From Oscillatoria sp. FACHB-1406 (GTDB lineage Bacteria; Cyanobacteriota; Cyanobacteriia; Cyanobacteriales; Spirulinaceae): 64,000 nucleotides of DNA. A program made the translations under genes and the position numbers. Below the pieces are notes generated by a model, which saw nothing but the letters and a program-made list of their open reading frames with translations, was not told the origin of the DNA and did no database searches. The DNA lies in assembly GCF_014698145.1 (NCBI RefSeq), contig NZ_JACJSM010000009.1:1-64000 (forward strand), read 5' to 3'. Positions 10,965 to 51,101 of the stretch are shown in pieces. The stretch's first letter is position 1. Every line of letters starts with the position of its first letter.

Positions 10965-11079
10965 GAATGGCACTGACGTTAAGCAAGAATAAATAGCCTG
11001 TAGAGACGTTGACTTGCAACGTCTCTACAGATATTTCGTAGGGTGGGCAGCGCCCACCAGCCTTAAGTCAGTGCCATTC
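10965..11079. mobile_element. Family D miniature element (115 bp) with 10-bp target duplication
   Basis: Terminal inverted repeats GAATGGCACTGAC and (opposite strand) GAATGGCACTGACTTAAGG. Two internal hairpins: GTAGAGACGTTG/CAACGTCTCTAC and GGTGGGCGCTGCCCACC. The flanks carry an exact 10-bp direct duplication ATCTATGCAG (10955-10964 and 11080-11089). Copies lie at 46515-46628, 61578-61691 and 63146-63257. No transposase inside, so movement must be in trans. The internal hairpins are in the reverse order relative to the other copies. Confidence 0.88.
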
Positions 11080-12596: not shown

Positions 12597-13238
12597 CTAT
12601 TCATTATTCACTTTAAACAAGCATCGATAGACGGGTTCGTTGCGTTCTAAGGTGGCTTTTTCTCGTTCTGTGGCGATGGGAAAAGGGTTTTCTGTTAGCC
12701 ATTCGTCGGAGTGTTGCAATTTGAAAGCCGAGCAAGCGTTGAAGCGATCGCGCATTTGTCGGGCGATCGCTTCAACATCCGATTGCAGAAAAACCTGTCC
12801 GCCTTCCGGCAAAATTTCTGCTAACAATTCAACGAGTTCCGGTTGCACGGCGCGTCGCTTAGCGTGCCGTCTTTTGAACCAAGGATCGGGAAATTGAAGG
12901 GTGACGCATTGTAAGGTTCCAGCGGGTAGCGATCGCGCAATAACCGGCAGATCGATATTGACATTTCCGCACAAATAGTGTAGGTTTTTTGCCCCTAAAT
13001 CATTCCGCCAGCGATTCGCTTCGACGACCAGCGGTTCGCGAATTTCCAACCCTAAGTAATTCCAATCGGGTTGAATTTGTGCCAAGTCTCGCAGAAACCG
13101 TCCCCAGGCGCAGCCGATATCGAGGTGGAGCGGTTGTTTGGGGTTAAGATAAATTTCCTCCCAATTCGGCGGCGCGATCGGGTTTTGATACTTATGACTG
13201 AGGGGGTTAACGTGCTGTCGAACTCGAACGCGAGACAT
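12597..13238 (-). CDS. trmB: tRNA (guanine-N7)-methyltransferase TrmB
   Basis: 213 residues from the ATG at 13238 (MSRVRVRQHVNPLS, the usual start of the family). It transfers a methyl group from SAM to G46 in the variable loop of tRNAs. The SAM site is LDIGCAWGRFL, and the catalytic and tRNA-contact segment is QFPDPWFKRRHAKRR. The frame is open upstream to 13409, but those residues come from heptamer repeats (encoding [12 protein letters not shown]-like sequence) and are not part of the protein. Cytoplasmic. Confidence 0.95.
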   Translation of the reverse strand: MSRVRVRQHVNPLSHKYQNPIAPPNWEEIYLNPKQPLHLDIGCAWGRFLRDLAQIQPDWNYLGLEIREPLVVEANRWRNDLGAKNLHYLCGNVNIDLPVIARSLPAGTLQCVTLQFPDPWFKRRHAKRRAVQPELVELLAEILPEGGQVFLQSDVEAIARQMRDRFNACSAFKLQHSDEWLTENPFPIATEREKATLERNEPVYRCLFKVNNE

Positions 13239-13820
13239 ACTGAGGGGAAATTGATAATGGATAATGGATAATGGATAATTGATAATGAAATTCCATATTA
13301 CCGATGCTCTGAGTATCCCTATTAGAAGGAATAATCTTTCGGTAAGCCGCGATCGCAGCACGACGGGAGCAGCAGGAAATCTTTTCTCGAACGATAAAAC
13401 TGCGAACATCCCCTGAATTGTTTTCAGGCAAGATTCGGATAGTACGCGATCGCTTCAATGAGTCACGCGGCAAAAATCGAGCTTCAAAGCATCGAAACGG
13501 GGGATTAGGTCGGGAGCTTCGGCAGGAAAGCGCCTAAAGCGTTGCATCGCGACCTCAGAATGCGTCCTGCCAATTTGTCACGCAATGCTGCATTGCTGTA
13601 ATACTATACCATAAGGCGACCTTCAGTTTTGCTGACGGGAAGAATGCCGCGCCTTGAATTCTCGGTTTACCCAGATATCTCAGATCGGATAAAATCGGGC
13701 TATGATACACCCCCCTGAATTTTGTTCTCTACAAAATATCGTTAGGGACAAAGCCTTTGCGTCCTGCGATGGTTAGTTTACAGACCCTACAACCCTGTCA
13801 GGAGTCATTTGCCAGAGACT
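13239..13820. other. Gene-free interval upstream of trmB and a conserved gene
   Basis: Bases 13243-13290 are heptameric GATAATG-type repeats. The remaining roughly 500 bp have no supported gene in either strand and no recognised RNA. Presumably they hold the divergent promoters of the flanking genes. Confidence 0.55.
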
Positions 13821-14486
13821 ATGTTTATTTTAAAAAGACAGGATGTTGAAATTTCAAGCATTCAGCACCCGAAGCGAGAGCAAAAAATCCCAATTCTTAA
13901 ATATCAAGATCAGAGTTTCCGGCTGATCGGTGTTTTCGCAGCGAACCAAGCCGAAGAAGCGCGGAATTACTGGCGAGATCTCACAGACAACCAAGGAAAG
14001 TTCTGTATTCTCCTCGAAGAACCCGATCGCCATAGTATTTGGGGTAGAATTCGTGCCGATCAGTTGAGCGACGAAGAGAGTATGGCGGATGCTCGGCTCG
14101 TTCCCCTCGCGCAAGCAAGTTTAATCCTGTTACAGACGGTGTATCTAGATATCGAAGACTTGCTCGGCAATCGACAAGCCAAACAATTCCAAAAAGATAT
14201 CGCTCAAGTCTTTGTCGAGTGGAAGTTTGCCCAAGCCGATTCGCCCGCAGCCGTCGAAAGACTGTTAACTCAAGTCGATCCCCTCGATATCAGCCAAGTT
14301 CAGCCTTGGGAAGAGCATCAATTGATCACCCTTCTTCAAGAACTGTACCGTTTCGGCAAAGCCTACTTTGGCAATACGAGTTTTGCTGAAGAAGTTGAAG
14401 ATATTTTACAAGATATGCCCGATAAGGAGAGAGAGCAGTTTCTGGCTTGGCTGAAACGAACTCCTTTAGGCAAATGCTGGCGATAG
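13821..14486 (+). CDS. Conserved cyanobacterial protein, Npun_F0813-like
   Basis: 221 residues from the ATG at 13821 (a TTG at 13809 is closer to a CAGGAG and is the alternative). The start MFILKRQDVEISSIQHPKRE resembles, from memory, the Npun_F0813 family of cyanobacterial proteins of unknown function. The protein is soluble, mixed alpha/beta in the first 110 residues and helical and acidic towards the C-terminus (EEVEDILQDMPDKEREQFLAWL). No catalytic motif is visible. It stands alone, 108 bp before the next gene on the same strand. Confidence 0.7.
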   Translation: MFILKRQDVEISSIQHPKREQKIPILKYQDQSFRLIGVFAANQAEEARNYWRDLTDNQGKFCILLEEPDRHSIWGRIRADQLSDEESMADARLVPLAQASLILLQTVYLDIEDLLGNRQAKQFQKDIAQVFVEWKFAQADSPAAVERLLTQVDPLDISQVQPWEEHQLITLLQELYRFGKAYFGNTSFAEEVEDILQDMPDKEREQFLAWLKRTPLGKCWR

Positions 14487-14594
14487 TTTCGCCTTGTTCG
14501 GGCAGCCCAGCGCAACCCAAAACGCGCGATCGCCCATTCCTTGTTGAAAATCATGTCAAAATATTGTTCTGATTTAGCACCCAAATAAAGTCCT

Positions 14595-15584
14595 ATGAGC
14601 AGTGCTGTAGAAAAATCCCAGGAATCTGGCACCTACTTGAATGGTCAGAAAGTCATCTACGTTGGAATTGCTTGGGCAATTCTCTCTTTATTTCTGTTTA
14701 TTGGTGGCATTGTTGCGCCAGAATTTGGCGACTCCCAAGCCTATTTAATTGCTACCTATGTTGCAGAATCGCTACCCTTTATTTGTGCTGCGCTCTTATG
14801 CTACCGAAACTGGAAAAGTCCGAAAATTGTTAGCGGTCGCAACGTTTGGTTATTCGTCGGTTTGGGCATTCTTTCGTACTTCATTGCCGACTTGATTTTT
14901 GGGTTTTGGGAAGTTTACTGGGGTCTCGATCCGGAAGTTTCCCCCGCCGATTTCTTCTATATGTCCTTCTATATTTTGCTCGGCGGCGGAATGGTTTTGG
15001 CAGTGTTATCGAGGCGCTTGAACCTGGAAGGCTGGCAGTGGGGGACGCTTTCAGTTATTGCGGTTATTGGCATGACGCTAGCCGTGTGGGTTGCCTTAGC
15101 CAAACCAGCAGTATCCGCCGATCTCGAACCGGCGATCGCAACACCAGCCGCGATCGAACAAACCGTACCCGCCCCAGAACCCCCTAAAACAGAAATTGAA
15201 TCTCCGGCGCGCCAAATTCCCGCTTGGGTTCCCGCTACCGAAGAATTTTTACTTCAGTTTTCCACGCCGATTAACGTTTTTTACATCCTCTGCGATGTCG
15301 CCCTGCTCATTATCGCAGCAATGTTGTTACTCGCGTTTTGGGGCGGGGCTGTATCCCTCTCGTGGCGCATGATTGCCGCCGCTGCCCTCGCGAAATACGT
15401 GGCCGATATGTGGTTTAAATATGCAGGGACGCTTCCCACTGAATATGTCAGCGGCGGGCTGCTCGAAGTGTTCTTTGTTTTTAGCGGTATTCTCTTTGCA
15501 ATTGGTGCTGCCTTAGAATATGACATATCTAGTCGTCCGCGAAAACGGCGCAGAAAGGCAAGCGATCGCACTGAAGTAGCATGA
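14595..15584 (+). CDS. Conserved multi-pass membrane protein
   Basis: 329 residues with about eight hydrophobic helices: around 21-43, 52-70, 83-105, 118-137 and 146-166, then, after a proline/acidic linker (about 175-215), 230-250, 255-275 and 290-310. The C-terminus is basic (RPRKRRRKASDR). I do not recognise a catalytic family. The hydrophilic linker between two membrane halves suggests a two-module protein. Its stop overlaps the start of the next gene by 4 bp (ATGA), indicating translational coupling with that HTH protein. Confidence 0.75.
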   Translation: MSSAVEKSQESGTYLNGQKVIYVGIAWAILSLFLFIGGIVAPEFGDSQAYLIATYVAESLPFICAALLCYRNWKSPKIVSGRNVWLFVGLGILSYFIADLIFGFWEVYWGLDPEVSPADFFYMSFYILLGGGMVLAVLSRRLNLEGWQWGTLSVIAVIGMTLAVWVALAKPAVSADLEPAIATPAAIEQTVPAPEPPKTEIESPARQIPAWVPATEEFLLQFSTPINVFYILCDVALLIIAAMLLLAFWGGAVSLSWRMIAAAALAKYVADMWFKYAGTLPTEYVSGGLLEVFFVFSGILFAIGAALEYDISSRPRKRRRKASDRTEVA

Positions 15585-16498
15585 GTCCAAGAAAACTGAC
15601 CGACTCCGACAAACAAGAAATCCTCCAACTCTATCGAACGCCCCAGGAAACGACTTCCACCCTCGCAGAGCGCTATCAAGTTAGTAGCTCTACGATTAGT
15701 CGCTTCCTGAAAACTCACCTCGCGGAAAACGAGTATGAAGAACTCATCCAACAGAAGCGCCTCAGCCGAACTCCCGCTGGTGCTGCCCAAGTTATGAGTC
15801 AATTCACCCCGCCCCCAGACGAGCCAGAAGCGCCCCTGCTTGAGTTATTGAGCGCCAACGAACCCGAGGAACTCAAAACCCCCTCTCCTCCCGCCCCTAA
15901 CCCACGGCGGACGCGGCGACGCTCCTCTGCCCCCTCTCCCGAAACTGCCGTCGAAAAACCAATCCTGTCAACGCCAGCAGTTAACTACTTTGAGGTAGAC
16001 GAGGAAGAAGACGAGGACAGCGTTCATGCTCTCGAAGAAATGCTTGGAGAAGATTTGGGCGATCTCAACCTCGATACCGAAGAAGATCTCGAAGATTTTG
16101 AAGAAGAGGGTGATGATTTTGATGAGGAGGACGACGATTGGGCTGACGGGGAGGAAGTAACCCCCACCGTTAAAAGTCGGATTAAAATTCAAGTCCTACC
16201 TTTTTCCGAAGCAACATTACCGAGAATATGCTACTTAGTCGTCGATCGCGCAGCAGAATTGGTTACGCCACTGTTACGCGAATTCGGCGACCTCGGCACG
16301 ATTCCCACCGATGAAATTCAACAAAAAACGCTGCCGATTTTCGACAATCATCGCGTTGCTCGGCGTTTCTCCAAACGTTCACAACGGGTGATTAAGATTC
16401 CCGACGGCAAAATGCTCGAAAAAACGGGCGCTTGTTTGGAGGCAAAAGGCATTAAGCGCTTGTTAATTAACGGTCAGGTTTATGCTCTCGAATCTTAG
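15581..16498 (+). CDS. HTH protein with acidic linker and conserved C-terminal domain
   Basis: 305 residues. The N-terminal 60 form a transposase/recombinase-type helix-turn-helix (EILQLYRTPQETTSTLAERYQVSSSTISRFLK). A low-complexity linker at about 95-205 is proline-rich and then extremely acidic (long runs of E and D). A compact C-terminal domain at about 210-305 follows (VLPFSEATLPRICYLVVDRAAELV...). The acidic run resembles a DNA-mimicking or phase-forming segment; that is inference. It is translationally coupled to the membrane protein upstream and overlaps cutA by 17 bp, so the three probably form one operon. Confidence 0.78.
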   Translation: MSPRKLTDSDKQEILQLYRTPQETTSTLAERYQVSSSTISRFLKTHLAENEYEELIQQKRLSRTPAGAAQVMSQFTPPPDEPEAPLLELLSANEPEELKTPSPPAPNPRRTRRRSSAPSPETAVEKPILSTPAVNYFEVDEEEDEDSVHALEEMLGEDLGDLNLDTEEDLEDFEEEGDDFDEEDDDWADGEEVTPTVKSRIKIQVLPFSEATLPRICYLVVDRAAELVTPLLREFGDLGTIPTDEIQQKTLPIFDNHRVARRFSKRSQRVIKIPDGKMLEKTGACLEAKGIKRLLINGQVYALES

Positions 16499-16823
16499 TC
16501 AAGAATCGAACGCTGACAGTTACTGCGTTGTTCTTGTAACCGCCGCCTCGCAGCAGGAAGCAGAAGCAATTGCTTCTGCTCTTCTTTCCGCGCGACTCGC
16601 AGCTTGCGTCAGCATGGCTCCTATTCATTCGATGTACGTTTGGAAAGGGGAAGTAAATGCGGACGAGGAATGGCAACTGACGATTAAAACCCGTCTGGCT
16701 TGTTTTGCAGCGCTCGAAGCAAAAGTTCGGGAACTTCATTCTTACGAAGTTCCTGAAATTATTGCACTACCAATTGTGGCGGGTTCTCAACCCTATCTCG
16801 ATTGGATAAAAAATGAGTTATGA
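16482..16823 (+). CDS. cutA: CutA1 divalent cation tolerance protein
   Basis: 113 residues, the standard CutA1 length. Recognisable segments are VLVTAASQQEAEAIASALLSARLAACVS, the MYVWKGEVNADEEWQLTIKT beta-hairpin, and HSYEVPEIIALPIVAGSQPYLDWI. CutA1 forms trimers with a ferredoxin-like fold and is linked to copper and other metal tolerance, though its biochemical role is unsettled. It overlaps the 3' end of the HTH gene by 17 bp in another frame. Heptamer repeats (TGAGTTA, TGAATTA) begin at its stop codon. Confidence 0.95.
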   Translation: MLSNLSQESNADSYCVVLVTAASQQEAEAIASALLSARLAACVSMAPIHSMYVWKGEVNADEEWQLTIKTRLACFAALEAKVRELHSYEVPEIIALPIVAGSQPYLDWIKNEL

Positions 16824-16922
16824 ATTATGAGTTATGAGTTATGAATTACGTCTGATGTGCAATATCCGAAAGTCTTAATTTCCCTCACCCCCAGCCCCTC
16901 TCCCAATGGTGGGCGAGAGGGG
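16818..16922. repeat. Heptamer array and CCCTCTCCC hairpin
   Basis: TGAGTTA/TGAATTA units occupy 16818-16848. A GC-rich hairpin CCCCTCTCCC...GGGCGAGAGGGG at 16894-16922 follows; it lacks a U-tract on either strand. Confidence 0.6.
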
Positions 16923-16936
16923 AAAAAGAACAGTAA

Positions 16937-17034
16937 TACCATTTCCTACAAGTTTTGCACTAAATTCGTCGCCGTAGGGGCATAACACCGTTATGCCCTC
17001 TTAGGGATTCGTGCAAAATCAATGAGAATTGGTA
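16937..17034. repeat. Family A miniature element, uninterrupted copy
   Basis: A 98-bp copy from TACCATTTCC to GAGAATTGGTA with intact central hairpin GGGGCATAAC-A-CCGTTATGCCC. It is the best reference for the family because nothing is inserted in it. Confidence 0.78.
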
Positions 17035-17111
17035 TAAGATCGAGCTTTCTAGCTTCTAATTCCCATTAGGAGTGAATTGTGAATGGGGAATGATGAGTCG
17101 CTAATTACAAA

Positions 17112-17786
17112 TTAAGAACGAAATCCAGTTTCTCTTAAAATGATGCGGTTTCCTTTGCGAACAATTAAGTTTGCAGGTCGCTGAGAATTCTCTGTAATAA
17201 ATTGTTCGAGAACATAGGAATATTCTCCATTTCGCCAAGCAGTGCGGCAAACGCCATCCCGACAAGTGACTTTTCCGCCCGTTAAATCAATGCAATTATT
17301 TTGGTTGTCGCAACCGCGATAAGTCACATTTCCAGTTCCATTCGTTCCATCCCAGGAACTCATATTTCCAATTTCTAAAGTCCATTTTCCATTGCGTAAT
17401 ACCAGCAAATCTTGCTCTGGCAAATCTGCTAGTTCAACTTCAGAAATCAGCGTCTCTAAACGAGTTTTTCCGCAAGGTTCGATACTTTGGCAGTCATTGA
17501 CAGACAGTTTATTATAGGTTAAATTGACTCTTTGATTGAGAATTTCGGAAGCGCGCTCGCAAATTTCAAAAGTTGCACCAATGTTATAAGTTTGATTGCT
17601 ATCGCTGACGACTGTTGCATAGCACATGATATCGCCAACTTGCAGTTCGGTAATAGTCCCTAATCTCGGATAATTAGAGGAGTTTTGAGCGTGGGCGCTG
17701 TCGATCGCAATACTGCTTAATAATCCAGAACTCGCACCCACAATTATGCTTAAACTAGCGATGGCCCGTCGAGTAATTTTAACCAT
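17112..17786 (-). CDS. Exported Cys-rich protein, paralog of the next gene
   Basis: 224 residues. A signal peptide (MVKITRRAIASLSIIVGASSGLLSSIAI...AHA-QNSS) suggests export. The mature region is shared with the 18061-18912 product: YPxLGTITxLQxGDxMCYA, NDCQSxEPCGKTRLExLISEV, then NMxSWDGTNGTG and RGCDNxNNCIDLTGGKVTCRxGVCRTxWxNGEYSYV. At least eight cysteines are conserved between the two, pointing to disulfides outside the cytoplasm. I do not recognise the domain. It is the third gene on this strand after the kinase-TIR-cyclase gene; a 274-bp gap with palindromes separates it from its paralog. Confidence 0.78.
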   Translation of the reverse strand: MVKITRRAIASLSIIVGASSGLLSSIAIDSAHAQNSSNYPRLGTITELQVGDIMCYATVVSDSNQTYNIGATFEICERASEILNQRVNLTYNKLSVNDCQSIEPCGKTRLETLISEVELADLPEQDLLVLRNGKWTLEIGNMSSWDGTNGTGNVTYRGCDNQNNCIDLTGGKVTCRDGVCRTAWRNGEYSYVLEQFITENSQRPANLIVRKGNRIILRETGFRS

Positions 17787-17912
17787 TAATATTTCCCTAA
17801 CATTATTACTGCTATGCTAACCAATCGTTTAGCCTTCCGCAAGACATCGAGACGATCGAACTCACTTTACAAAATTTTATGACATGGATTTGTATAGCAG
17901 TTTTCACAGGGA

Positions 17913-18023
17913 TGAGGTACACCTAGCGGGCGAATACCATTCGCCCCTACGGGGCGGCGTTTAATTTCGAGGCGACCTCGAAATCCGCGCCCCTACCGAT
18001 TTGATTTTTGGAACTGTACCTCA
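17913..18023. repeat. Palindromic element with TGAGGTAC ends
   Basis: About 111 bp bounded by TGAGGTACA and TGTACCTCA. It contains hairpins GGGCGAATACCATTCGCCC and GAGGCGACCTCGAAATCC. A wider pair TATAGCAGTTTTC (17894) / GAAAAACGCTATA (18026) flanks it, suggesting insertion in another small element. The internal GGGCGAATGGTATTCGCCC hairpin also occurs near 10025. Confidence 0.55.
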
Positions 18024-18060
18024 CGCAAACGAAAAACGCTATATAATTCTTTCCTAAAAA

Positions 18061-18912
18061 TTAAGAACGAAATTCAGTTTCTCTTAAAATAACTCGATCG
18101 CCTTGCCGAACAATCAAGTTAGCGGGTTTTGCTTCCCCATCCGTTATAAACTGTTCGACGACATAAGAATATTCTCCGTTTTGCCAAATAGTACGGCAAA
18201 CGCCCTCCCGACAAGTGACTTTTCCGCCTGTTAAATCGATGCAATTATTTTTGTTGTCGCAGCCTCGATAACTCACACTTCCAGTGCCATTCGTTCCATC
18301 CCAAGACTTCATATTGCCAATTTCTAGCCGCCATTTTCCATTACTTAAAATAGTGGTATCTTGTTGGGCAGAATCGCCAGAATCGGCAGAACCGACAATT
18401 TTAACCTCAGAAATCAGGTTTTCTAAGCGTGTTTTGCCGCAAGGTTCGTTACTTTGACAGTCATTGACGCGCGTTTCTTGATAAGTTAAACGAGCTTTTT
18501 TATTCAATAATTCTGAAGCGCCTTCGCAAACTTCAAATGTTGCGCCTAGGTTGTAAGTTTTATTGTTATCGTCTGCGACTGTTGCGTAGCACATTAAATC
18601 TCCGGATTGTAGTTGAGTAATCGTTCCTAAGCTTGGGTAACTTGAATCATTTTTAGCAGCTTCTTTTTCAGAACTCTTGACATTTTCTTTCTGAGGACTG
18701 CTGGATTTTTCTGTTTCGGGACTCTTTAAAGTTTCCTTTTCCGAACTGCTTGAATTTTCCCTTTCAGTAAGGCTAACGTTTTCTTTTTCAGCACGGCTCG
18801 GATTGTTTGGTTCGGAAAGGCTCGAATCCTTAGAACAACTTCCTAAAAATACTGAAACCGTACCTAAAAGAATCATTAAACTCGCAATCGCACGTTGCTT
18901 TATTTTCGCCAT
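18061..18912 (-). CDS. Lipoprotein paralog with SEKE-type repeat linker
   Basis: 283 residues from the ATG at 18912, chosen because MAKIKQRAIASL aligns with MVKITRRAIASL of the downstream paralog and a GGAAAG site precedes it. The lipobox VFLGSC predicts a lipid-anchored protein. Residues about 25-85 are a low-complexity charged linker of SE/KE units (SEKE, TEREN, SPQKEN), absent from the paralog. The rest is the same cysteine-rich domain. It starts 45 bp after the stop of the kinase-TIR-cyclase gene, so co-transcription is likely. Function unknown; an envelope role is inferred only from its anchor. Confidence 0.8.
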   Translation of the reverse strand: MAKIKQRAIASLMILLGTVSVFLGSCSKDSSLSEPNNPSRAEKENVSLTERENSSSSEKETLKSPETEKSSSPQKENVKSSEKEAAKNDSSYPSLGTITQLQSGDLMCYATVADDNNKTYNLGATFEVCEGASELLNKKARLTYQETRVNDCQSNEPCGKTRLENLISEVKIVGSADSGDSAQQDTTILSNGKWRLEIGNMKSWDGTNGTGSVSYRGCDNKNNCIDLTGGKVTCREGVCRTIWQNGEYSYVVEQFITDGEAKPANLIVRQGDRVILRETEFRS

Positions 18913-18957
18913 TTTACTTTCCACCAAAAGCTTTAGCCATAAGCTAGCTATGCGTTT

Positions 18958-21900
18958 TCAGGCTGAGGGAAGACTGAGTGCCACTTGATAAATAGGCACA
19001 GGTTCGGGCAATCCCTTTAATTCCTGCGGTCCGCAATAGTTAACTTCAAGAGACAAATTATTTTTTACGACTTCATAAACGGTTTGCGAGATGCAAATCC
19101 CGCCCGGTTCTGCTTTGGCTTGCAATCGCGCGGCGATGTTGACTCCAACGCCTAAAACGTCGTCGCCGTTAAAGAAAACATCGCCAACGTGAATGCCAAT
19201 TCGATGTCTTAGAATTGCAATATCCGGCAAAGTTTCAGCCTTTTTCGCTAACGCTCTTTGAATTTCTCGAGCGCAATCGACGGCTTTAACGGCGCTGACA
19301 AAATAAATTAATAAGCCATCGCCCATCGATTTAAGAACTTGTCCGTCGTAGCGCTGACAAATCTCGCGCATGAGTTGAAAGTCGCGTTGCATCGATTCTA
19401 ATGCTTGGGTAGGATTGGCGACAGAAAGTGCAGTAGAATCGACAACATCGGTAAAGGCGATCGCGGCTAAGCTGCTTCCTTGCGTTGCAATAGAGGGTGT
19501 TTCCGGACGAGGGGCAATTTGCGAAACTCCCTCGAGACGCTCGCGGAAATAATCGCGATATACCGCACAGCGAGGTAATACTTCATTGCCGCTCAAATGC
19601 AATAACCCCATACTATACAGTTTAAAAGCCGTGTCGGGTTGAATAGAAACAGGTTCGTTTGCTGCTACCACAACCCTAAAATCGATCGCGAGTTGGGGAT
19701 ATTGTTTGAGAATCCAGAGATTGCGGCGCAGGTGATCCCCGTATAATCCCGATTCCGAGGCTCCGGTTTGCAGCAGTCGCTCGAGGGTTGTATCGCCTTT
19801 AGCAATATGATAGAGAGCGAGGCGCACTAGGTAAGGATGTCCGCCAACGGCAGCTAACAACGGTTCGATCTCGCGCGCTTTCCAGTCCAATCCGTGCAAC
19901 TGCGCTAAGTGCTGCACCTGTTGGCCATTAAATTCAGGCAGTTCGACGGGCAACCCGACGTTAAACGGCGATTGATTGACATTGAGGCGCACGTAAACTT
20001 CCGTCGAATGCACCACGACTAAGCGCAACTTTTGCCAAATTTCTCGATTTTTCGCCTCTTCGTGCCAAGCGCGCAACAAGCTAAAAAAGTCTTCCGCAAT
20101 TTCAGGATATTCAAAAACGCGATCGACTTCATCGAGTCCGAGAACGATTGGACTCTCGATTTCTTGCAGTAAATAGTCTTCAAAATACGTCGTACAATTT
20201 TCCTTACTGCCGAAAAGATCGTCCCAGTAATCGCCAACGCGGTTGGGGATTTGTAGGCGGCGGGTAATACTGGCACAAAACCAGCGCAAAAATTTATCGA
20301 GATCGGCAAAAATTTTGCCGTCGGCGAGTTGAAAGCTAAGGCTGACGGGTTTGCCGCCCTCTTGTTCGGCGTGCTGGAGAATGCGCGCCATCAGCGAGGT
20401 TTTGCCCATTTGTCGGGGCGCTTTAATGCGAATTAAACTGCCCGGTTGGATGATGGTTTCGTAGCAGCGCGCTTCGATGGGCGGGCGTTCGATGTAGAAG
20501 ACTGATGTTAAACCGACTTGTCCTTCGGGTAGAACGGGTTCGGCGGCGGGTAAGGGTTTGCCGCTGGGACTTTCTTCGGCGGGGAGGAGGGTGGGGAGAT
20601 AGTCTTCTTCGGTTGGGAAGTCTTCTGGCGCGCCGGAAAGCCGAAGGTGCAGTTCTTCGAGGAGGGCGGGCGTGTCGGCGGGAGAGTGCCAGTCGCGCGT
20701 GCCGCTGCGCGGATCTTCGTTAGAGCGTAAACTGGCGAGATAGCCGCGCAATTCGTAGTTGAGGGGGGCGCGTTCGGGCAGGTTGACTCGTACTAGGAGG
20801 ATGGCGGGTTTACCGTCGAGGGAGCGATCGCGCCGCCCTTTGACGCGACTCACCTGCTCGGTTATCATTTCGCTGGTGGCTGCATACTCGCACAACAACA
20901 CCACGAACAGATCGCAAATTTCTAAACCCTCGTTGGCGCGGCTGTTCCATTCTTCGCTCGGACAGAGGAAGACGCGATAACCCTCGGCGGTTAGCGCTTG
21001 GTAAAGTTCGTTAGCGAGGGTGCGATCGATGTCGCGATCGGCGTAGGCGATCGAGACGATCTCCGGGCGATCGACAACGGTTGCTTCTGCCTTGAGGGTT
21101 AGATTTGAGAGACGACTCGTTTCAAGGACAACTGTTTCGGCATCCGTTTCATCGAGTTCGGGCTGGCTGCTGGGGAAGAGTTCGCCGATGGGAGTGGTGA
21201 GGACGCGACTCACGCCTTGGAAAAAACGACTGAGGGGAGAGATGTTTTCGCCGTCTCGAGCGCGCCGTTCTAAATCCTCTAAGACAGCTTTAGCAGATGG
21301 ATAGCGCTGGGAGTAGGAAGGGGAAACCATTCTCGAGATAACCGCGATCGTCTCCGGGCTGATAATTAAATCTAGATGCCAGTTATTTTCCCAATCGGGT
21401 TCGCTTTGGAACTGAAGCGGTTTTTTGCCGGTGAGGGCTTGAATGGCGATAATACCGAGGGCGTAAATATCGCTGTTGGGCTGGGGGTTGCCTTGGGCTT
21501 GTTCGGGGGCGATGTAGCCCGGAGTGCCGATAACAACGGTTTGTGTTGCGGGGTTGCGCTCGTTGCCAGAAACCGTTCGCACTTGCTTGACGGCTCCAAA
21601 ATCAATCGGACAAAGCTTATCATCCGAGGCGCGCCGGATAATATTATCGGGTTTGAGGTCGCGGTGAATGACCCCAAAACTATGAATGAACTCGAGAACG
21701 GGCAAAATTTCTTTGAGGAGATTGAGAACTTGATGTTCTGTCCATTGTTGCCCCGGTAAGAATTCCCCGCGCAAGGAGAGTCCGTCGATGAATTCCTCGA
21801 CGAGGAAAAATTCGGCGTTCTGCTCGAAGTAAGCCAGTAGGCGCGGAATGCGATCGTGATTGCCGAGTTTTTCGAGGATTTCGGCTTCTTGGTGAAATAA

Positions 21901-22083
21901 CCGCCGCGCTACCGTTACATCTCGCGGCGTGTTGCTTAGTGGTTTGAGTTGCTTGACGACGCACTCCGGCTGTCCGGGGCGGCGGCGATCTTCAGCCAGG
22001 TAGGTTTGACCAAATCCTCCCGCTTCCAAAACTCGAATAATATGGTAGCGTCCGTCTAGGACTTGACCTAATATCACCGACAC
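18958..22083 (-). CDS. Ser/Thr kinase-TIR-AAA-adenylate cyclase fusion
   Basis: 1041 residues with four modules. (1) Hanks-type kinase, 13-275: GGFGQT loop, K44, HRD D142, DFG D161. (2) TIR-like domain, about 343-470 (PEIVSIAYADRDIDRTLANEL, ICDLFVVLLCEYAATSEMITEQ), with E409 or E405 as candidate catalytic glutamate. (3) AAA-like STAND-type NTPase, about 520-850: Walker A APRQMGKTS at 555-563, Walker B VLGLDEVD with D651/E652. (4) Class III cyclase, 870-1041: metal D879/D922, adenine-selecting K918/D975, N982/R986, so cyclic AMP is the expected product. All key kinase, P-loop and cyclase residues are kept. No membrane segment, so probably cytoplasmic. Likely first gene of an operon with the exported paralogs. 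Ligand and output are unknown. Confidence 0.9.
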   Translation of the reverse strand: MSVILGQVLDGRYHIIRVLEAGGFGQTYLAEDRRRPGQPECVVKQLKPLSNTPRDVTVARRLFHQEAEILEKLGNHDRIPRLLAYFEQNAEFFLVEEFIDGLSLRGEFLPGQQWTEHQVLNLLKEILPVLEFIHSFGVIHRDLKPDNIIRRASDDKLCPIDFGAVKQVRTVSGNERNPATQTVVIGTPGYIAPEQAQGNPQPNSDIYALGIIAIQALTGKKPLQFQSEPDWENNWHLDLIISPETIAVISRMVSPSYSQRYPSAKAVLEDLERRARDGENISPLSRFFQGVSRVLTTPIGELFPSSQPELDETDAETVVLETSRLSNLTLKAEATVVDRPEIVSIAYADRDIDRTLANELYQALTAEGYRVFLCPSEEWNSRANEGLEICDLFVVLLCEYAATSEMITEQVSRVKGRRDRSLDGKPAILLVRVNLPERAPLNYELRGYLASLRSNEDPRSGTRDWHSPADTPALLEELHLRLSGAPEDFPTEEDYLPTLLPAEESPSGKPLPAAEPVLPEGQVGLTSVFYIERPPIEARCYETIIQPGSLIRIKAPRQMGKTSLMARILQHAEQEGGKPVSLSFQLADGKIFADLDKFLRWFCASITRRLQIPNRVGDYWDDLFGSKENCTTYFEDYLLQEIESPIVLGLDEVDRVFEYPEIAEDFFSLLRAWHEEAKNREIWQKLRLVVVHSTEVYVRLNVNQSPFNVGLPVELPEFNGQQVQHLAQLHGLDWKAREIEPLLAAVGGHPYLVRLALYHIAKGDTTLERLLQTGASESGLYGDHLRRNLWILKQYPQLAIDFRVVVAANEPVSIQPDTAFKLYSMGLLHLSGNEVLPRCAVYRDYFRERLEGVSQIAPRPETPSIATQGSSLAAIAFTDVVDSTALSVANPTQALESMQRDFQLMREICQRYDGQVLKSMGDGLLIYFVSAVKAVDCAREIQRALAKKAETLPDIAILRHRIGIHVGDVFFNGDDVLGVGVNIAARLQAKAEPGGICISQTVYEVVKNNLSLEVNYCGPQELKGLPEPVPIYQVALSLPSA

Positions 22084-22488
22084 CTCACCCCCTTGAAGAA
22101 ATTAATGGCGTTATCCTCAGTTTAGCGAATTGTTGAGTTTTATCCACCCTTAAACGCTCGTTGCGCGATCGCGCTAATCTTCGCGATTTTTCTGCATAGG
22201 ACGTTTAAGCGATCGCTGTAGTAAGCGATCGATATCGAACTCTTTAAAGGGGTAAAAAATAGCCATCTTGTCAGATTGAAATAGGGCTTGCTGAATAATG
22301 AATAATTGATACTCTTAAGACATCCCTCGGTTGAAAGGTTTTCATTCTCACTATCAGCAAATAGTTATTGAAGTAAAAAGAATGCAGTCGTAGAGACGTT
22401 TCATGAAACGTCTCTACTTATTGAATCGGTTAGAGCGGAAGGTTAGAAGAAATAACTGTTGAGGTTATCTCCAACTCGCTTCAATGGG
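22084..22488. other. Gene-free interval with HIP1 cluster and a hairpin
   Basis: Several GCGATCGC-type sites at 22160-22230. The hairpin GTAGAGACGTTT-CATG-AAACGTCTCTAC at 22391-22418 resembles one arm of the family D element standing alone. No gene supported. Confidence 0.55.
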
Positions 22489-23628
22489 CTACGAAATTGA
22501 ATCATTCGCTCTGTTTTCTAGCGGCAAATATCCTTCGATGAGAAAATCGGGTTCTATACCCGTCACGGTAACGCGCTCCAGTTGTAACGCTTGCGTCATT
22601 TGAGTTAATCCTAATTCGCCGATGGGAGAAGGCGCATCGCGACCGCCGATAATTTTGGGGGCGACAAAGGCCATAATTTTATGAACGGCAGATTGCGCGA
22701 TCGCTTCAGCAGCCAAAACGCCCCCACATTCCCATAAAATCCGAGAAAGGCCGCGATCGTACAAATGCGCCATTGCCGCCGCTGGAGTTAAGGGCGACAA
22801 TTCCACCACTTCTACGCCCAGTTGCTCCAATTTCCCGCGAACGGTGGCATTTGCCCCCGTTTCTGTTAATACCAGTGTTGCGACTTCCGCCGTATGCCAT
22901 AACTTCGCCTCGAGGCGTAAGTTCAAACTGCGACTCATAACGACGCGCAACGGGTTGTGGGGATGGACGTTATGGCTGGTGAGGAGGGGATTATCTTGGC
23001 GCGCGGTGTTGCCCCCAATAATAACGGCATCGGCGGCGGCGCGTTCCCAGTGGACGAGATGGCGTGCTTTCTCTCCCGTTACCCAAGCACTATGGCCGCT
23101 GCTAGCCGCAATTTTGCCATCTAGGGTCATGGCATACTTGAGAATGCCGAAAGGTTGTTGGTAACGGATGCGATGAAAGAAAGCTTCGTTCAGTTGGCGA
23201 CAGGCGGCTTCTTCGACTCCGACGATAACTTCGATTCCCGCCGCGCGCAGGCGATCGACTCCCGTTCCGGCAACGAGGGGATTGGAATCGATCGCGCCGA
23301 CTACCACTTTTGCCACGCCTGCCGCGATTAAAGCTTCAGTACAGGGCGGGGTTCGTCCGTGGTGATTGCAAGGCTCTAAATTGACGTAAACCGTCGCTCC
23401 GCGCGCGTTTTCGCCCGCCGCTTGCAGCGCAAAAATTTCGGCATGGGGCTGTCCGGCTGCGGGATGGAAGCCTTCGCCGACAATCTCGCCATTGCGCGCA
23501 ACAATCGAACCGACGAGCGGGTTTGGGGTTGTGCGCCCCAAGGCGCGGCGGGCTAGTTCTAGACAGCGCTGCATCATGGCGCGATCGACCCAACCGATCG
23601 CGTCAGGGAAGGGGGAGGAAGATTGCAT
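22489..23628 (-). CDS. ribD: Bifunctional riboflavin deaminase/reductase RibD
   Basis: 379 residues catalysing two steps of riboflavin synthesis. The N-terminal zinc deaminase (about 16-150) shows HAEIFAL and PCNHHGRTPPC, supplying the zinc ligands and proton-shuttle glutamate. The C-terminal NADPH-dependent reductase (about 160-370) shows LKYAMTLDGKIA and WECGG. An alternative start is the MM pair at residues 18-19, but the upstream ATG at 23628 is kept because the sequence is open and ordinary. No other rib gene is nearby. Cytoplasmic. Confidence 0.95.
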   Translation of the reverse strand: MQSSSPFPDAIGWVDRAMMQRCLELARRALGRTTPNPLVGSIVARNGEIVGEGFHPAAGQPHAEIFALQAAGENARGATVYVNLEPCNHHGRTPPCTEALIAAGVAKVVVGAIDSNPLVAGTGVDRLRAAGIEVIVGVEEAACRQLNEAFFHRIRYQQPFGILKYAMTLDGKIAASSGHSAWVTGEKARHLVHWERAAADAVIIGGNTARQDNPLLTSHNVHPHNPLRVVMSRSLNLRLEAKLWHTAEVATLVLTETGANATVRGKLEQLGVEVVELSPLTPAAAMAHLYDRGLSRILWECGGVLAAEAIAQSAVHKIMAFVAPKIIGGRDAPSPIGELGLTQMTQALQLERVTVTGIEPDFLIEGYLPLENRANDSIS

Positions 23629-23760
23629 AGCAACAGATGGGGGAAGTAAGATGACAGCAATTGTGGCTCTAGGGGAAGTGGCAAGATTGTCGTGGCTTCA
23701 GCCCGACGTAGTGTGTCAAAATAGGCCCAAGCCCGACTTTATTTTTAGAGATACCACACA

Positions 23761-24210
23761 ATGTTTGTCCGGTGGGAGCAACGGAAGGAGAATTTAGAAG
23801 CAGTGCTGGTTGAGGCTGACAGTCAAGCTCGGCAACGAGTTGTCAAAACGCTAGCCTGCATTAAAAACGAAGACGTTCATACATATTGGGGACATCTGAA
23901 TTTTTGGAAGGATGTTTCGAGTGTCTTAGAAGATTTCCCGGACGAAACGCGCGAGCAAATCGTTGGCGAGCTTTCCGGGCGGATTGTCCCCGTTCCAAAT
24001 TGGGCGGTGGAGAGAATGGAAGCTTTGTTTAACGAATATCATCAACGAGGCGAATCGCTCTTGGAAGCGATCGAGGCAGAAAAACAACGGCACGAGATGA
24101 AGTTAATCGAACTGACGCTGCAAGAAAAAGGCGAACGCGAAGAATTGGAGGCGAAGAAGGCGACGTTGTTAGAGGAGATTGCTAGCGAGTTGGGTCGGAA
24201 TGATGAGTGA
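23761..24210 (+). CDS. Small conserved helical protein, unknown function
   Basis: 149 residues. The first 85 look globular (WEQRKENLEAVLVEADSQARQRVV..., DVHTYWGHLNFWKDV), and the last 60 form a highly charged coiled coil (EAIEAEKQRHEMKLIELTLQEKGEREELEAKKATLLEEI). I do not recognise a family. It is divergent from ribD across 132 bp and convergent with ackA; no clear ribosome site precedes the ATG. Confidence 0.65.
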   Translation: MFVRWEQRKENLEAVLVEADSQARQRVVKTLACIKNEDVHTYWGHLNFWKDVSSVLEDFPDETREQIVGELSGRIVPVPNWAVERMEALFNEYHQRGESLLEAIEAEKQRHEMKLIELTLQEKGEREELEAKKATLLEEIASELGRNDE

Positions 24211-24289
24211 TGAATTGTGAGCGATCGATTATGAGTAGAGGCGGGTTTTAAAACTCGATACCTTATACTCTTTCATCATTCAGAACTCA

Positions 24290-25489
24290 TCATTCATCAT
24301 TGATTTTCCAGCATTCTTGCGCGATCGCCCAATCTTCCCGAGCGCGGATAACAAAGACGCGAACCGGCGATTCAGCACTGGCAATATCGCGATCGATGGG
24401 ACGCGCTTCATTTTCGGCTTCATTGAGTTGCAATCCGAGGAATTCTAAGGCTTGGCAAGCACTGCGCCGCACGAGGGGAGAATTTTCGCCGACACCGCCG
24501 GTAAAAACGAGGGTATCTAAACCACCTAAAGAGACTAGCATCGCTCCAATGTGTCGCTGCAAGCTGTGGAGGTAAACCTCTAAGGCGAGTTGGGCGCGAT
24601 CGCTTCCAGACGCGATCGCGCGATTAATTTGTCGCAAATCGTTCCCCACTCCCGACAGTCCCTTCAACCCCGATTCTTTATTCAGCAAGCGGTTTAAGCG
24701 TTCGACATCGTAGCCCTGACGCAGTAAGTGAATGAGAATGCCGGGATCGATACTTCCGGAACGACTGCCCATCATTAACCCTTCCAGGGGCGTAAATCCC
24801 ATTGTCGTATCGATGCAAGTGCCGTCGCGGATGGCGGCGAGAGATGCGCCGTTACCGAGGTGGCAGGTAATCAGGCGGTGGGGAAGGCGATTTTGTAGCG
24901 CTGCGACGCGATCGCGGCAATACTGATGGTTGATCCCGTGGAACCCATAGCGGCGAATCCCTTGTTCGTAAAAAGAGTAAGGAATGGGATAAACGGCGGC
25001 GGCGGGGGGAAGGGTAGCGTGAAAGGCGGTATCGAAGACGGCGACTTGCATTACATCGGGCAGCACTTTAGAAATTGCGTCGATTCCTTCGAGGTTGACG
25101 GGATTGTGTTCCGGTGCAAGGGGAATCAAAGACGCGATCGCCTCGACAACTTCCGGAGTCACGCGCACCGCTTCGCGATACTTCTCGCCGCCGTGAACGA
25201 TGCGATGTCCGACAGCATCGATTTCTTGGAGATCGGATAGCACTTGCGTTTCACCTTGATACAGCGTCGCTAACATTCGCCCTATCCCTTCTTGGCGTTC
25301 TCCCCCTAAAATTTGTTCTTCTAACGATGTACCTTGCTGCGTTGTCACCGACAGCATCGCCGCATCCTGCATCCAGTCAATTTTCGCTTCCCAAAGCGGT
25401 TTGGGCGGCGTATCGGGAAGGGCATTCAGGATTTCGTACAAACAGCTTTTTTGGGTGCTAGAACCCGCATTTAAAACCAGAATTTTCAT
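24290..25489 (-). CDS. ackA: Acetate kinase
   Basis: 399 residues, the standard length. It interconverts acetate plus ATP with acetyl phosphate plus ADP. Family signatures: NAGSSTQKSCLYE at the N-terminus, GHRIVHGG, DTAFHATLPP, GFHGINHQY, ITCHLGNGASLAAI, TTMGFTPLEGLMMGSRSG and VFTGGVGENS. In cyanobacteria it works with Pta in overflow metabolism and acetyl phosphate balance; no pta adjoins it. Cytoplasmic. Heptamer repeats lie just past its stop. Confidence 0.97.
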   Translation of the reverse strand: MKILVLNAGSSTQKSCLYEILNALPDTPPKPLWEAKIDWMQDAAMLSVTTQQGTSLEEQILGGERQEGIGRMLATLYQGETQVLSDLQEIDAVGHRIVHGGEKYREAVRVTPEVVEAIASLIPLAPEHNPVNLEGIDAISKVLPDVMQVAVFDTAFHATLPPAAAVYPIPYSFYEQGIRRYGFHGINHQYCRDRVAALQNRLPHRLITCHLGNGASLAAIRDGTCIDTTMGFTPLEGLMMGSRSGSIDPGILIHLLRQGYDVERLNRLLNKESGLKGLSGVGNDLRQINRAIASGSDRAQLALEVYLHSLQRHIGAMLVSLGGLDTLVFTGGVGENSPLVRRSACQALEFLGLQLNEAENEARPIDRDIASAESPVRVFVIRAREDWAIAQECWKINDE

Positions 25490-25601
25490 GGCGATTAGTT
25501 TAGCGCTTCCTGCAAGATTTCTTAGAGCGAGCTTGTTATCGTTAGTTTAGAAGAGTCCTCGTTAGTGACACTTTAAGACTGTAAGACTGTAAGACTGCGA
25601 T

Positions 25602-26675
25602 ATGTTTAACCGCTCGAAGCTATTCCTTCTCTCCCTCCTCGCTATCTCAGCAACCCTAAATGGATGCCCTAGCGTCCAACCCCCCGTTACCAATAATCCG
25701 CCCTCCCCCGAACCCAGCCAGACTTCTGAACCCCCTCCTAGTTCTCCTAAACCCGCCTCGCCAACCCCCACGCCTCAACAACCTCAATTTAAAAATCGCG
25801 TTAAAGTTTATTTCCCTAAAACGCCTGAAAGTAACGAGAACTTCAGTTACGTCGAACCCGTTTGGAGAAATACTAACAGCGATGGGGTCGCTCAATTCGC
25901 GATCGCGCAACTCCTCGAAGGTCCCACCTCCCAAGAACAACAAGTCGGACTCGTCCGCGCCGTCCGACTAAAAGACGCATCCAACTGCGGCAGCGACTTT
26001 AAGATTGAAATTGCCAAAAAAGTCGCGCAACTGCAATTTTGTCGCACGGTTGTTTCCGGCGGCGTGGGAGATGATGCGCGCGCCCTCAGCGCCCTCAACG
26101 CTACCCTCAAACAATTTCCCACCGTCGATTCTGCTGTTATTCTCGATAAAAATGGCAACTGTCTTGGCGATGGTAGCGGCGACAACCGCTGTTTAGCCAA
26201 CCTTCCCCGCAAACTCGATACGACGGCAAAACTTGCCCTAACTAGCCTCGGCCCCGTTCGCGTCGGGATGACCCCGGAAGAAGCAAGCCGCGCCGCCGGA
26301 ACTAAAATTGTCGAGTGGGGAACCAACCCCGAACGCTACTGCCTGTACTATCGACCGGAAGGCGAACCGAAAGACGTTTCTTTTATGGTCGTCGAAGGTC
26401 GAATTGCCCGCATTGATATCGACACTCGCAGCATTACTACGCTCGGAGGCGCAAAAATTGGCGACAGTGAAGCGCGCATTCGCGCACTCTATCCCGGACA
26501 AATCAAAGCAGAACCCCACGAATACGTTTCGGGGGGCAAATATCTCATTTTTGTGCCGCGAGACTCCGCACAGGGCAATTATCGGGTAGTTTTTGAAACT
26601 GACGCGAGCGGAATAGTCACCCGGCTTCGCAGTGGCAAATTGCCGGAAGTGAAGTATGTTGAAGGCTGCGCTTAG
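25602..26675 (+). CDS. GerMN-domain lipoprotein
   Basis: 357 residues. The signal peptide ends in lipobox ATLNGC, making C22 the lipid-anchored residue. A proline-rich spacer (about 25-65) is followed by a GerMN-type domain at about 67-200 (KVYFPKT..., AIAQLLEGPTSQEQQVGL, SALNATLKQFPTVDSAVIL) and a C-terminal domain of about 140 residues (LGPVRVGMTPEEASRAAGTKI...). GerMN domains occur in envelope lipoproteins of spore-formers and many non-sporulating bacteria, so no link to sporulation is implied. The second domain begins like other small periplasmic domains (VRVGMTPEEA). Expected at the cell envelope. Confidence 0.85.
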   Translation: MFNRSKLFLLSLLAISATLNGCPSVQPPVTNNPPSPEPSQTSEPPPSSPKPASPTPTPQQPQFKNRVKVYFPKTPESNENFSYVEPVWRNTNSDGVAQFAIAQLLEGPTSQEQQVGLVRAVRLKDASNCGSDFKIEIAKKVAQLQFCRTVVSGGVGDDARALSALNATLKQFPTVDSAVILDKNGNCLGDGSGDNRCLANLPRKLDTTAKLALTSLGPVRVGMTPEEASRAAGTKIVEWGTNPERYCLYYRPEGEPKDVSFMVVEGRIARIDIDTRSITTLGGAKIGDSEARIRALYPGQIKAEPHEYVSGGKYLIFVPRDSAQGNYRVVFETDASGIVTRLRSGKLPEVKYVEGCA

Positions 26676-26819
26676 CGATACAATTTTCGACACGGTAGCT
26701 CGAGCGAGGGCGACTCGAAACAGTCGAATCAGTGGGCTACGAGTTGGAATTTCTTTGGAGTTTTAAGGGGAATGTGCCTCCCCCAAAGAACGTTTCGCAA
26801 GCTTCAAGGGATTCCATTC

Positions 26820-26865
26820 TCAATTGTCCTTGTCAATTGTCAATTATCCATTATCCATTAGCCCC
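26820..26865. repeat. Heptameric TTGTCAA/TTATCCA repeats
   Basis: Seven-base units directly upstream of the glycosyltransferase ATG, leaving no evident ribosome site. Confidence 0.7.
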
Positions 26866-26867
26866 CT

Positions 26868-28010
26868 ATGACCAAAATCCTCATTCTCTATTCCTCCCTC
26901 GGTTCGGGACATATCAGCGCGGCGAAGGCACTGGAGGAAGCTTTTGCTCGTTTTCCTGAAGTGACGGTGACGAGTGAAGATGCTCTCGATTATGCCAGTC
27001 CGATCTATCGCAGTGCAGTTACCCAAGCTTACAAGCAATTAAGCGAGAAAGCGCCGCAGTTATACAAAGCGTTTTATGAAGGCAGCGATACGGCGGATTT
27101 GGAAAAATCCCTCGATAATAACCTCGCTTGGGCAAAAATCGAACGTCTTTTCTTTAGGAAATTGGGTCAGTTGGTACGAGATCTAGACCCCGATGTTATT
27201 GTTTGCGTCCAACAAATTCCCAGTCGTTTTCTGCAATTATTGGAACAAGAAGATAAGCTTTCTAAACCGCAATATGTCGTTATTACCGATATCATTGCCC
27301 ACAGCACTTGGATTAATTACGGTGTTGATGGCTATTTTTTGCCGAATAAATTGGGAGCTAATTTGTTGATTCAACGTGGCGTAAATCCCGATATTCTCCA
27401 CGTTACCGGGATTCCCATCAAGCTGGAGATTATGGAACCAAAAACGAAGGAAGAGGTGCGATCGCGTCTCAATCTTCCCTTAGATGCTCCCGTTATAACC
27501 CTTTTTGGCGGCGGACTCAATTCCCGTCGAGTTCGCGCTATGGTTGTGGATTTGCTAGCGACTTTGCCTTCGGGAACGTTAATCGTGGGGGCGGGGCGCA
27601 ATGAGGATTTGTTGGAGGCCTTGGAAGAAGTTGAAAGCAGTCCGACGGTGGAGTTACGCAAGCTTGGGCTTATCGATTCGGTTGACGATTTGATAGTCGC
27701 AAGCGATGTAGCGATCGCGAAGGCGGGCGGACTGATTAGCAGCGAAATCTTGGCACGCGGTACGCCGACGGTAATTGTGGATCCGATTCCGGGACAAGAA
27801 GAACAGAATGCCGACGCGATCGCGGCAGCAGGGGCAGGCGTACAATTGCGATTATTAGAAATGGTTGCCCCAGCAGTTCGTTATTTGCTCGAACATCCAG
27901 AACGCCTTCAGGAGATGCGAAAATCTGCCCTCGAAATCGGGCAACCTCGCGCTGCGTTGAATATTGCTGAGTGCATTCTTAATGATTGGCGATCGCGGAA
28001 TAATGAATAG
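26868..28010 (+). CDS. MGDG synthase/MurG-like glycosyltransferase
   Basis: 380 residues of the GT28 family. The N-terminal half is of the monogalactosyldiacylglycerol-synthase type (LILYSSLGSGHISAAKALEEAF; YKQLSEKAPQLYKAFYEG). The C-terminal half has the sugar-nucleotide site (LFGGGLNSRRVRAMV; DVAIAKAGGLISSEILARGTP; DPIPGQEEQNADAI). Likely a lipid or polysaccharide glycosyltransferase acting at the inner face of a membrane. In cyanobacteria the first galactolipid step uses a different enzyme (MgdA, a GT2), so the acceptor here is uncertain. Confidence 0.85.
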   Translation: MTKILILYSSLGSGHISAAKALEEAFARFPEVTVTSEDALDYASPIYRSAVTQAYKQLSEKAPQLYKAFYEGSDTADLEKSLDNNLAWAKIERLFFRKLGQLVRDLDPDVIVCVQQIPSRFLQLLEQEDKLSKPQYVVITDIIAHSTWINYGVDGYFLPNKLGANLLIQRGVNPDILHVTGIPIKLEIMEPKTKEEVRSRLNLPLDAPVITLFGGGLNSRRVRAMVVDLLATLPSGTLIVGAGRNEDLLEALEEVESSPTVELRKLGLIDSVDDLIVASDVAIAKAGGLISSEILARGTPTVIVDPIPGQEEQNADAIAAAGAGVQLRLLEMVAPAVRYLLEHPERLQEMRKSALEIGQPRAALNIAECILNDWRSRNNE

Positions 28011-28240
28011 TGAATAATGAATAATGAATGATGAGTGGTGAATGGGGGAATGATGAGTGATGAATAGTGAATGATGAATAATGAATAGTGAATGATGAAT
28101 AATGAATGATGAGTGCTTGAGGAGGAAGCACAATTGGCTCGCTAACTCCTATTTGGGACGTTCCAACAAGCCCTAATTATCCATTATCCATTGTCAATTA
28201 TCCATTACCTAATTATCCATTATCCATTGTCAATTATCCA
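28005..28240. repeat. Long heptameric repeat tract between convergent genes
   Basis: From 28005 to about 28113 the 7-base units are GAATAAT, GAATAGT, GAATGAT and variants, more than ten in a row. From about 28172 to 28242 they are TTATCCA/TTGTCAA. The tract lies between convergent genes, so it is a shared 3' region. Confidence 0.8.
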
Positions 28241-50863: not shown

Positions 50864-50869
50864 TTTTAA

Positions 50870-51098: not shown

Positions 51099-51101
51099 CC
51101 T

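Follow-up and report, generated by a model that had tools for sequence, protein, structure and literature searches.

Among published concepts, those nearest to the protein described here concern the conflict systems of multicellular prokaryotes, in which, as set out in the accessible parts of two reports, TIR domains, serine/threonine kinases, cyclic nucleotide monophosphate cyclases and trypsin-like proteases are tied to nucleoside triphosphatases (NTPases) (PMC7159879, PMC8195603). The gene that we have analysed lies on the reverse strand of a 64,000-nucleotide stretch of DNA from Oscillatoria sp. FACHB-1406 (the first part of contig NZ_JACJSM010000009.1; hereafter, the window), and it encodes a single protein in which a Hanks-type kinase (KIN), a TIR domain, an AAA_35 NTPase and a class III adenylate cyclase (CYC) are stacked. 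The module types are largely those of the conflict systems, but the latter, with their ternary organization and effector-associated domains, employ vWA/MoxR and other NTPases (PMC7159879, PMC8195603), and the portion of PMC7159879 that was accessible does not mention AAA_35. Kinase and cyclase also share one cyanobacterial protein in Trichodesmium, Tery_2857, although the available part of its description gives a kinase with GAF and CYCc domains, and names neither TIR nor AAA (PMC2176072). The same two domains are combined in the TOMM system kinase/cyclase fusion (NCBIfam TIGR03903), but the window protein scores only 114 bits against this model, for which the cut-off is 705.75. Mammalian soluble adenylyl cyclase and the mycobacterial cyclase-ATPase regulators resemble the window protein in coupling a cyclase to a regulatory NTPase; we know of no TIR domain or kinase in soluble adenylyl cyclases with NTPase regions.

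Pfam recognizes the four modules in the order Pkinase, TIR_2, AAA_35 and Guanylate_cyc, each above its curated cut-off (Table 1), and the reading frame is open over its entire length. The four-module match is far beyond chance, since all of them pass these cut-offs and each recurs in relatives of the AAA_35 family. A misassembled join is also unlikely, because the genome lacks a near-identical second copy of any module: the best other matches are 56% identical for the kinase, 55% for the AAA_35 domain and 41%, over 76 residues, for the cyclase. Immediately 5' of the start codon, a purine-rich tract, seen by eye, represents a possible ribosome-binding site. These results confirm the four-module protein reported in a preliminary description of this DNA, and the key residues that it listed for the kinase, the NTPase and the cyclase are all present.

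Table 1. Features of the KIN-TIR-AAA_35-CYC gene and its product (window coordinates)
Feature	Residues	Coordinates	Strand	Basis
Whole gene, KIN-TIR-AAA_35-CYC	1041 aa	18958..22083	(-)	GTG start
Hanks-type Ser/Thr kinase	13-261	21301..22047	(-)	Pfam Pkinase E 1.9e-33; K44, D142, D161
TIR, five beta-alpha units, degenerate	343-483	20635..21057	(-)	Pfam TIR_2 and AlphaFold2 model
Codon for the Gln that replaces the TIR catalytic glutamate	Q410	20854..20856	(-)	Profile alignments
AAA_35 NTPase	518-848	19540..20532	(-)	Pfam E 6.2e-150; K561, D651/E652, GxP-like GGHP 747-750
Class III adenylate cyclase	871-1032	18988..19473	(-)	Pfam Guanylate_cyc E 2.1e-14; D879/D922, K918/D975, N982/R986

The kinase retains the VAIK-like lysine (K44) and the aspartates of the HRD (D142) and DFG (D161) motifs; its nearest relatives are other cyanobacterial kinases, and it is 57% identical to one kinase in relative locus L042 and 55% identical to two further kinases of its own genome. 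Class III cyclases rely on two metal-binding aspartates, a Lys/Asp pair that specifies the purine, and an Asn/Arg transition-state pair. In the window cyclase these are D879/D922, K918/D975 and N982/R986, respectively, and the metal and purine-specifying residues are kept when column conservation is taken over 50 rows. Its best sequence matches in the PDB include Ma1120 and 3mr7. The AAA_35 domain (PF14516) matches the profile over positions 1-331 of 331, with both Walker motifs present. Across 33 AAA_35 rows, K561, G747, G748 and P750 are invariant, and D651 and E652 are kept in at least 90%. Beyond the nucleotide-binding domain, the order of helices and strands in the predicted model, together with the GGHP motif, is compatible with a STAND NTPase, making this a plausible assignment.

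The AAA_35 domain belongs to a cyanobacterial family, which we term the A proteins, with interchangeable modules at either end: TIR, KIN-TIR, CYC-TIR, CHAT, trypsin-like and HTH-like modules, and a C-terminal CYC ('HTH-like' is a label given from the sequence; Pfam assigns no family to this region in L110 and L161, the two that were scanned). The window domain is 45-71% identical to other A domains, as against 22-29% to the divergent B domains described below, and scores 608 bits against the A model, of which it is one of the seeds. We collected the relatives by a pattern scan across 84,980 species, with one genome for each, which gave 48 loci, and from overlapping whole-genome sets of 39, 386, 388, 388 and 42 genomes; in the 386-genome set and the two 388-genome sets, scoring was limited to six candidates per genome, at E cut-offs of 1e-40, 1e-65 and 1e-65, respectively. 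Before counting, we dropped 24 loci that repeated a place in another locus, were the window itself, or held only B, as well as L082 and L169 (identical A domains) and A domains shorter than 250 aa (from broken genes, L038 and L064 among them). A-type domains were found in 27 of the 39 close-relative genomes at E 1e-100, the window's own genome included; among 72,556 plasmid records, 41 matched at 1e-60, none of them covering 80% of the query. One A gene, in L067, lies on a contig filed as Candidatus Gracilibacteria and sits beside Hydrococcus genes in the tree; the contig is probably a mis-binned cyanobacterial one. No paper describing AAA_35 pairs or the role of A-type domains was found in a search whose reach covered few subscription papers, and of five papers that contain AAA_35 or PF14516, a single one, PMC11119718, is relevant, and that only in passing.

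The domains preceding AAA_35 in this family may be TIR alone, KIN-TIR, CYC-TIR, CHAT-TIR, HTH-like-TIR or HTH-like alone; there are also CHAT-AAA-CYC, HTH-like-AAA-CYC and AAA-CYC proteins, and a trypsin-like-TIR-AAA protein in L037. Because the window protein served as the query in collecting these loci, the module frequencies among them are biased. Kinase, TIR and cyclase occur together in none of the 101 other A genes (8 of which are cut at the locus end), and L174, a later TIR-AAA-CYC relative, does not have all four modules either. The four-module stack was seen once in the sets searched, in the window genome; its components and several three-module combinations, among them KIN-TIR-AAA and TIR-AAA-CYC, are found elsewhere. 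The ceiling of six candidates per genome and the E cut-offs on the match lists mean that its absence from other genomes is not proof.

L174:3605-5731, a class-level relative, has a TIR domain, an AAA_35 domain that is 65% identical and a C-terminal cyclase that is 60% identical, arranged as in the window protein, but no kinase; unlike the window gene, it keeps the TIR glutamate and is directly followed by a B gene with WD40-like repeats (by eye). In Acaryochloris and other cyanobacteria, KIN-TIR-AAA_35 proteins (L031-L036, L044) share the order of the window protein and are 60-65% identical to it in AAA_35 and, among the KIN-TIR-A genes, 49-55% in the kinase, but lack the cyclase; B is the next gene in 6 of the 8 KIN-TIR-A genes counted (in one of these, L045, the kinase is in a separate frame). 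CYC-TIR-AAA_35 and CHAT/HTH-AAA_35-CYC proteins carry a cyclase of the same family, 53-68% identical in the rows listed (38% in L172, which is the same as L085), but the cyclase is N-terminal or the N-terminal module is a different one. By identity, the closest cyclases, at up to 68%, are the C-terminal ones of CHAT-A-CYC and A-CYC proteins.

The TIR domain is the one module in which a key residue has changed. Its Pfam TIR_2 match (residues 343-438, E 2e-8) reaches 35.2 bits against a cut-off of 28, compared with 51.5, 70.6 and 77.7 bits for L081, L174 and L037, the relatives whose TIR domains were scanned. The AlphaFold2 model has a confident five-unit beta-alpha fold, with a mean predicted local distance difference test score (pLDDT) of 88.1 and a predicted template modelling score (pTM) of 0.83, and it places the end of the domain at residue 483. 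The best structural match is the TIR domain of L6 (Z 14.2, root-mean-square deviation 2.9 over 140 residues), with RPS4/RRS1 (Z 14.0), the TIR-APAZ/Ago complex (14.0) and RUN1 (13.5) close behind; TIR structures span 14.2-12.2, a range that is not exclusive to this fold, since DNPH1, a nucleotide hydrolase, scores 13.4. The model and the structural matches support the expectation that the middle region folds as TIR. In profile alignments (the family profile comprised 46 of 48 rows, L033 and L057 being excluded), the Glu conserved in Cat1, Roq1 (two chains), RUN1 and one bacterial TIR domain aligns to residue 410 of the window protein. For RUN1 this is chain position 81, which would correspond to E100, the site of the mutation in 7s2z. 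Hence, the WxxxE-type position in helix C, occupied by the catalytic Glu in NADase TIR domains, is Gln in the window protein. Glu is present here in 42 of the 48 aligned rows, the window protein being one of the rows; the exceptions are Gln in the window protein, L081 and L106, Ala in L047, Ile in L052 and Val in L084. Additionally, the gap between F372 and L387, in the BB-loop region, comprises 14 residues, as opposed to 19 in 37 of the 48 rows, and is shorter still, at 11 residues, in two rows (L088, L089). Given the replaced glutamate and the BB-loop region, shorter than in most relatives, the NAD-derived signal envisaged earlier is not supported for this copy. Judged by these residues, the window TIR probably lacks NADase activity, and it is most likely an inactive domain kept for assembly or as a scaffold. 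The broader suggestion of a signal integrator survives in part: multi-output signalling is plausible, given the kept kinase, cyclase and P-loop residues, without an NAD-derived component.

For 54 of the 101 other A genes, a second, divergent AAA_35 gene (B) lies downstream in the same orientation, within 600 bp in 46 cases and at 761-2547 bp in 8. Two more A genes are fused to B, 24 have no B although 3 kb or more of sequence would have accommodated one, and the other 21 do not allow a verdict; the B of L063, which overlaps its A by 204 bp, was scored as absent. The frequency varies with the type of A protein: as well as KIN-TIR-A, B accompanies CHAT-A-CYC (8/11), A-CYC (6/7), TIR-A (15/22) and CYC-TIR-A (3/6), and seldom HTH-A (2/19). 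WD40 or TPR repeats were found in four of the five B proteins scanned with Pfam: WD40 in L031, L048 and C17 (a contig of the window's own genome), and TPR in L037, with no further match in L042. The frequent position of B next to A and the repeats that it carries suggest that many A proteins are the effector half of a pair. Natural fusions are also seen, in the order A-B in L072:5269-8157 and B-CYC-A in L116:424-3138, and point to A and B acting together. The trees of the two domains mirror one another in places: a clade of 17 A-CYC/CHAT-A-CYC rows (support 100/100) is matched by a clade of 13 of their B (100/99), 8 KIN-TIR-A rows by 5 of their B, and 5 H-A-CYC rows by 4 of theirs (three B pieces below 230 aa were excluded from the B tree).

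The window gene itself has no adjacent downstream B; the next genes in that direction, at 18061-18927 and 17112-17786, have no Pfam match. Its genome contains three A genes, three B genes whose AAA domain is complete (on contigs C17, C18 and C27) and a partial B on C26. On C27, A adjoins B, and on C18 they are 6 kb apart. The remaining B, at L159:1996-5553 on contig C17, encodes a WD40-type protein of 1185 aa with a B-type AAA domain, by both search and tree, and has no A gene nearby in the 7.5 kb read, nor elsewhere on that contig in the own-genome search. By elimination, it is a candidate partner in trans for the window A protein.

On balance, we lean towards regarding the window protein as a stacked A-type member of a cyanobacterial family of AAA_35 switches, its outputs being the kinase and the cyclase, and its TIR domain serving as scaffold. 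In many such systems, the B protein, with its divergent AAA_35 domain and often a WD40 propeller or TPR repeats, would be the sensor, and the A protein, with its interchangeable modules, the output side. On receipt of a signal, the AAA_35 domain would bind ATP and then assemble; assembly would bring C-terminal cyclase domains together as a dimer, with production of cyclic AMP (cAMP), and the N-terminal kinase may phosphorylate itself or its partners. Class III cyclases need to dimerize to work, so an assembling NTPase would be a natural gate. The orphan B protein from C17 could be the partner, or the window protein may act alone. More tentatively, and as something we consider possible but would not expect, these proteins may constitute an undescribed split NLR-like system, in which a sensor ATPase (B; AAA_35 with WD40 or TPR) and an effector ATPase (A) co-assemble, the window protein being its most stacked form, with phosphorylation and cAMP as outputs, the TIR as scaffold and the sensor encoded elsewhere. 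If A and B do function as pairs, one AAA_35 switch could be wired to many outputs, of which the window protein would bear two working ones at once; it would offer a tractable system for studying how an NTPase gates phosphorylation and the production of cAMP, and would exemplify in nature a TIR domain retained after the loss of its enzymatic function.

Several observations weigh against this interpretation. B is not always a neighbour, being absent beside 24 of the 101 A genes, 10 of which are HTH-A. The window A gene is itself without an adjacent B, such that pairing in trans depends on elimination, and in the B tree the C17 protein falls in a group of loose branching together with the B of many A types. 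Furthermore, the C18 B sits in a kinase-like protein of 1911 aa, implying that a B and the A that it serves can be of different kinds. With regard to the TIR domain, the Pfam score does not track catalysis, since L081 scores more strongly and also lacks Glu at position 410; and E405 (codon 20869-20871) is invariant in 48 of 48 family rows, despite not being at the canonical catalytic position, and thus the AAA_35-family TIR could use an unusual catalytic residue. Lastly, the predicted model of the full-length protein has a pTM of 0.34, and the domain arrangement is not readable from it.

A role as a phage-defence effector of an NLR-like system would be compatible with the AAA_35 switch favoured above, as its purpose, but strikes us as somewhat unlikely. 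The set of TIR, kinase, cyclase and trypsin-like modules does resemble that of the conflict systems of multicellular bacteria, as far as these are covered in the accessible parts of PMC7159879 and PMC8195603. However, no defence gene was recognized among the neighbours scanned: PADLOC, applied in the window to ten neighbours and the two genes just downstream, returned for the ten neighbours (12597-28891, at 1e-5) no match other than a generic methyltransferase (mad2), and where Pfam names a neighbour the gene is an ordinary one (RibD, ThiC, MGDG synthase and haem genes are examples), several neighbours having no named family. Moreover, the window protein's own PADLOC matches are to kinase models that ordinary kinases match better; the candidate PD-T4-6 defence kinase was ruled out in this way, the window kinase scoring 303 bits and the control kinases 338 (own genome) and 342 (L042).

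We consider it fairly unlikely that the window protein is an integrator that operates without any B, in which the kinase senses or is regulated, AAA_35 gates and the cyclase reports. The lack of an adjacent B would fit, as would the 24 A genes in the same position, which include the KIN-TIR-A genes of L035 and L044; set against this, Pfam finds no sensor-like repeat domain in the protein, and the genome holds an orphan WD40-type B.

That the TIR is still an NADase, by way of E409, E405 or a shifted helix, and that the protein yields cAMP together with an NAD-derived signal, or depletes NAD and so kills the cell, seems improbable. The fold is kept, E405 does not vary, and E409 adjoins the catalytic position and is Glu in 38 of the 48 rows; but the preliminary description's proposal of either residue for the active site is ruled out by the five profile alignments to solved TIR domains, which all place the catalytic glutamate at Q410, and the short BB-loop region (in spite of L088 and L089) and weak Pfam score argue in the same direction. 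A chance or decaying fusion without retained function, which the occurrence of the order in one genome only among the sets searched and the degenerate TIR might suggest, is very unlikely in view of the open 1041-residue frame and the active residues kept in three of the four modules.

The origin of the stack was addressed with topology tests on a 47-row AAA set, the subsets having been picked after the first tree was seen, and the A-CYC gene of L083 being left out. A clade of the window protein with CYC-TIR-A (6 rows) is rejected by the approximately unbiased test (p-AU 2.4e-5), and one with H-A-CYC (3 rows) weakly so (0.023). Grouping with KIN-TIR-A (6 rows) is not rejected (0.44), nor, at the 0.05 level, is grouping with A-CYC/CHAT-A-CYC (13 rows; 0.060), such that the group with the closest cyclases is not clearly matched by the placement of the AAA domain. 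With TIR and AAA combined, a clade of the window protein with L174 is rejected (1.3e-5), and the window protein joins KIN-TIR-A in the best tree at support 47/0, too low to settle the placement. Origin through fusion of neighbouring KIN-TIR-A and CYC-TIR-A genes, an idea taken from the tandem genes of L064, is not supported by these tests. The AAA tree requires at least five changes for the C-terminal CYC and two for KIN, and a single group of the 18 C-terminal-cyclase rows is rejected (0.001); such cyclases were probably gained on more than one occasion.

The two genes directly downstream of the window gene, on the same strand, are paralogues (55% identical) with export-signal-like N-termini, and the first lies 30-48 bp past the stop codon of the KIN-TIR-AAA_35-CYC gene, with which they are perhaps co-transcribed; a search for counterparts in the relative loci compared gave no match other than the two window genes themselves. 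Short palindromic repeats that resemble each other (TAGAGACGTT...AACGTCTCTA) were seen by eye at ~10999-11030 and, upstream of the gene, within a few hundred bases of 22083. Elsewhere in the window, 3694-5787 (+) is a second cyclase gene, with PAS and a strong Guanylate_cyc match (227 bits), and 47723-56388 (+) encodes an ABC exporter with cyclic-nucleotide-binding and C39-like domains, an HlyD-type protein and a DUF4114/beta-helix protein, possibly forming a cyclic-nucleotide-responsive secretion cluster.

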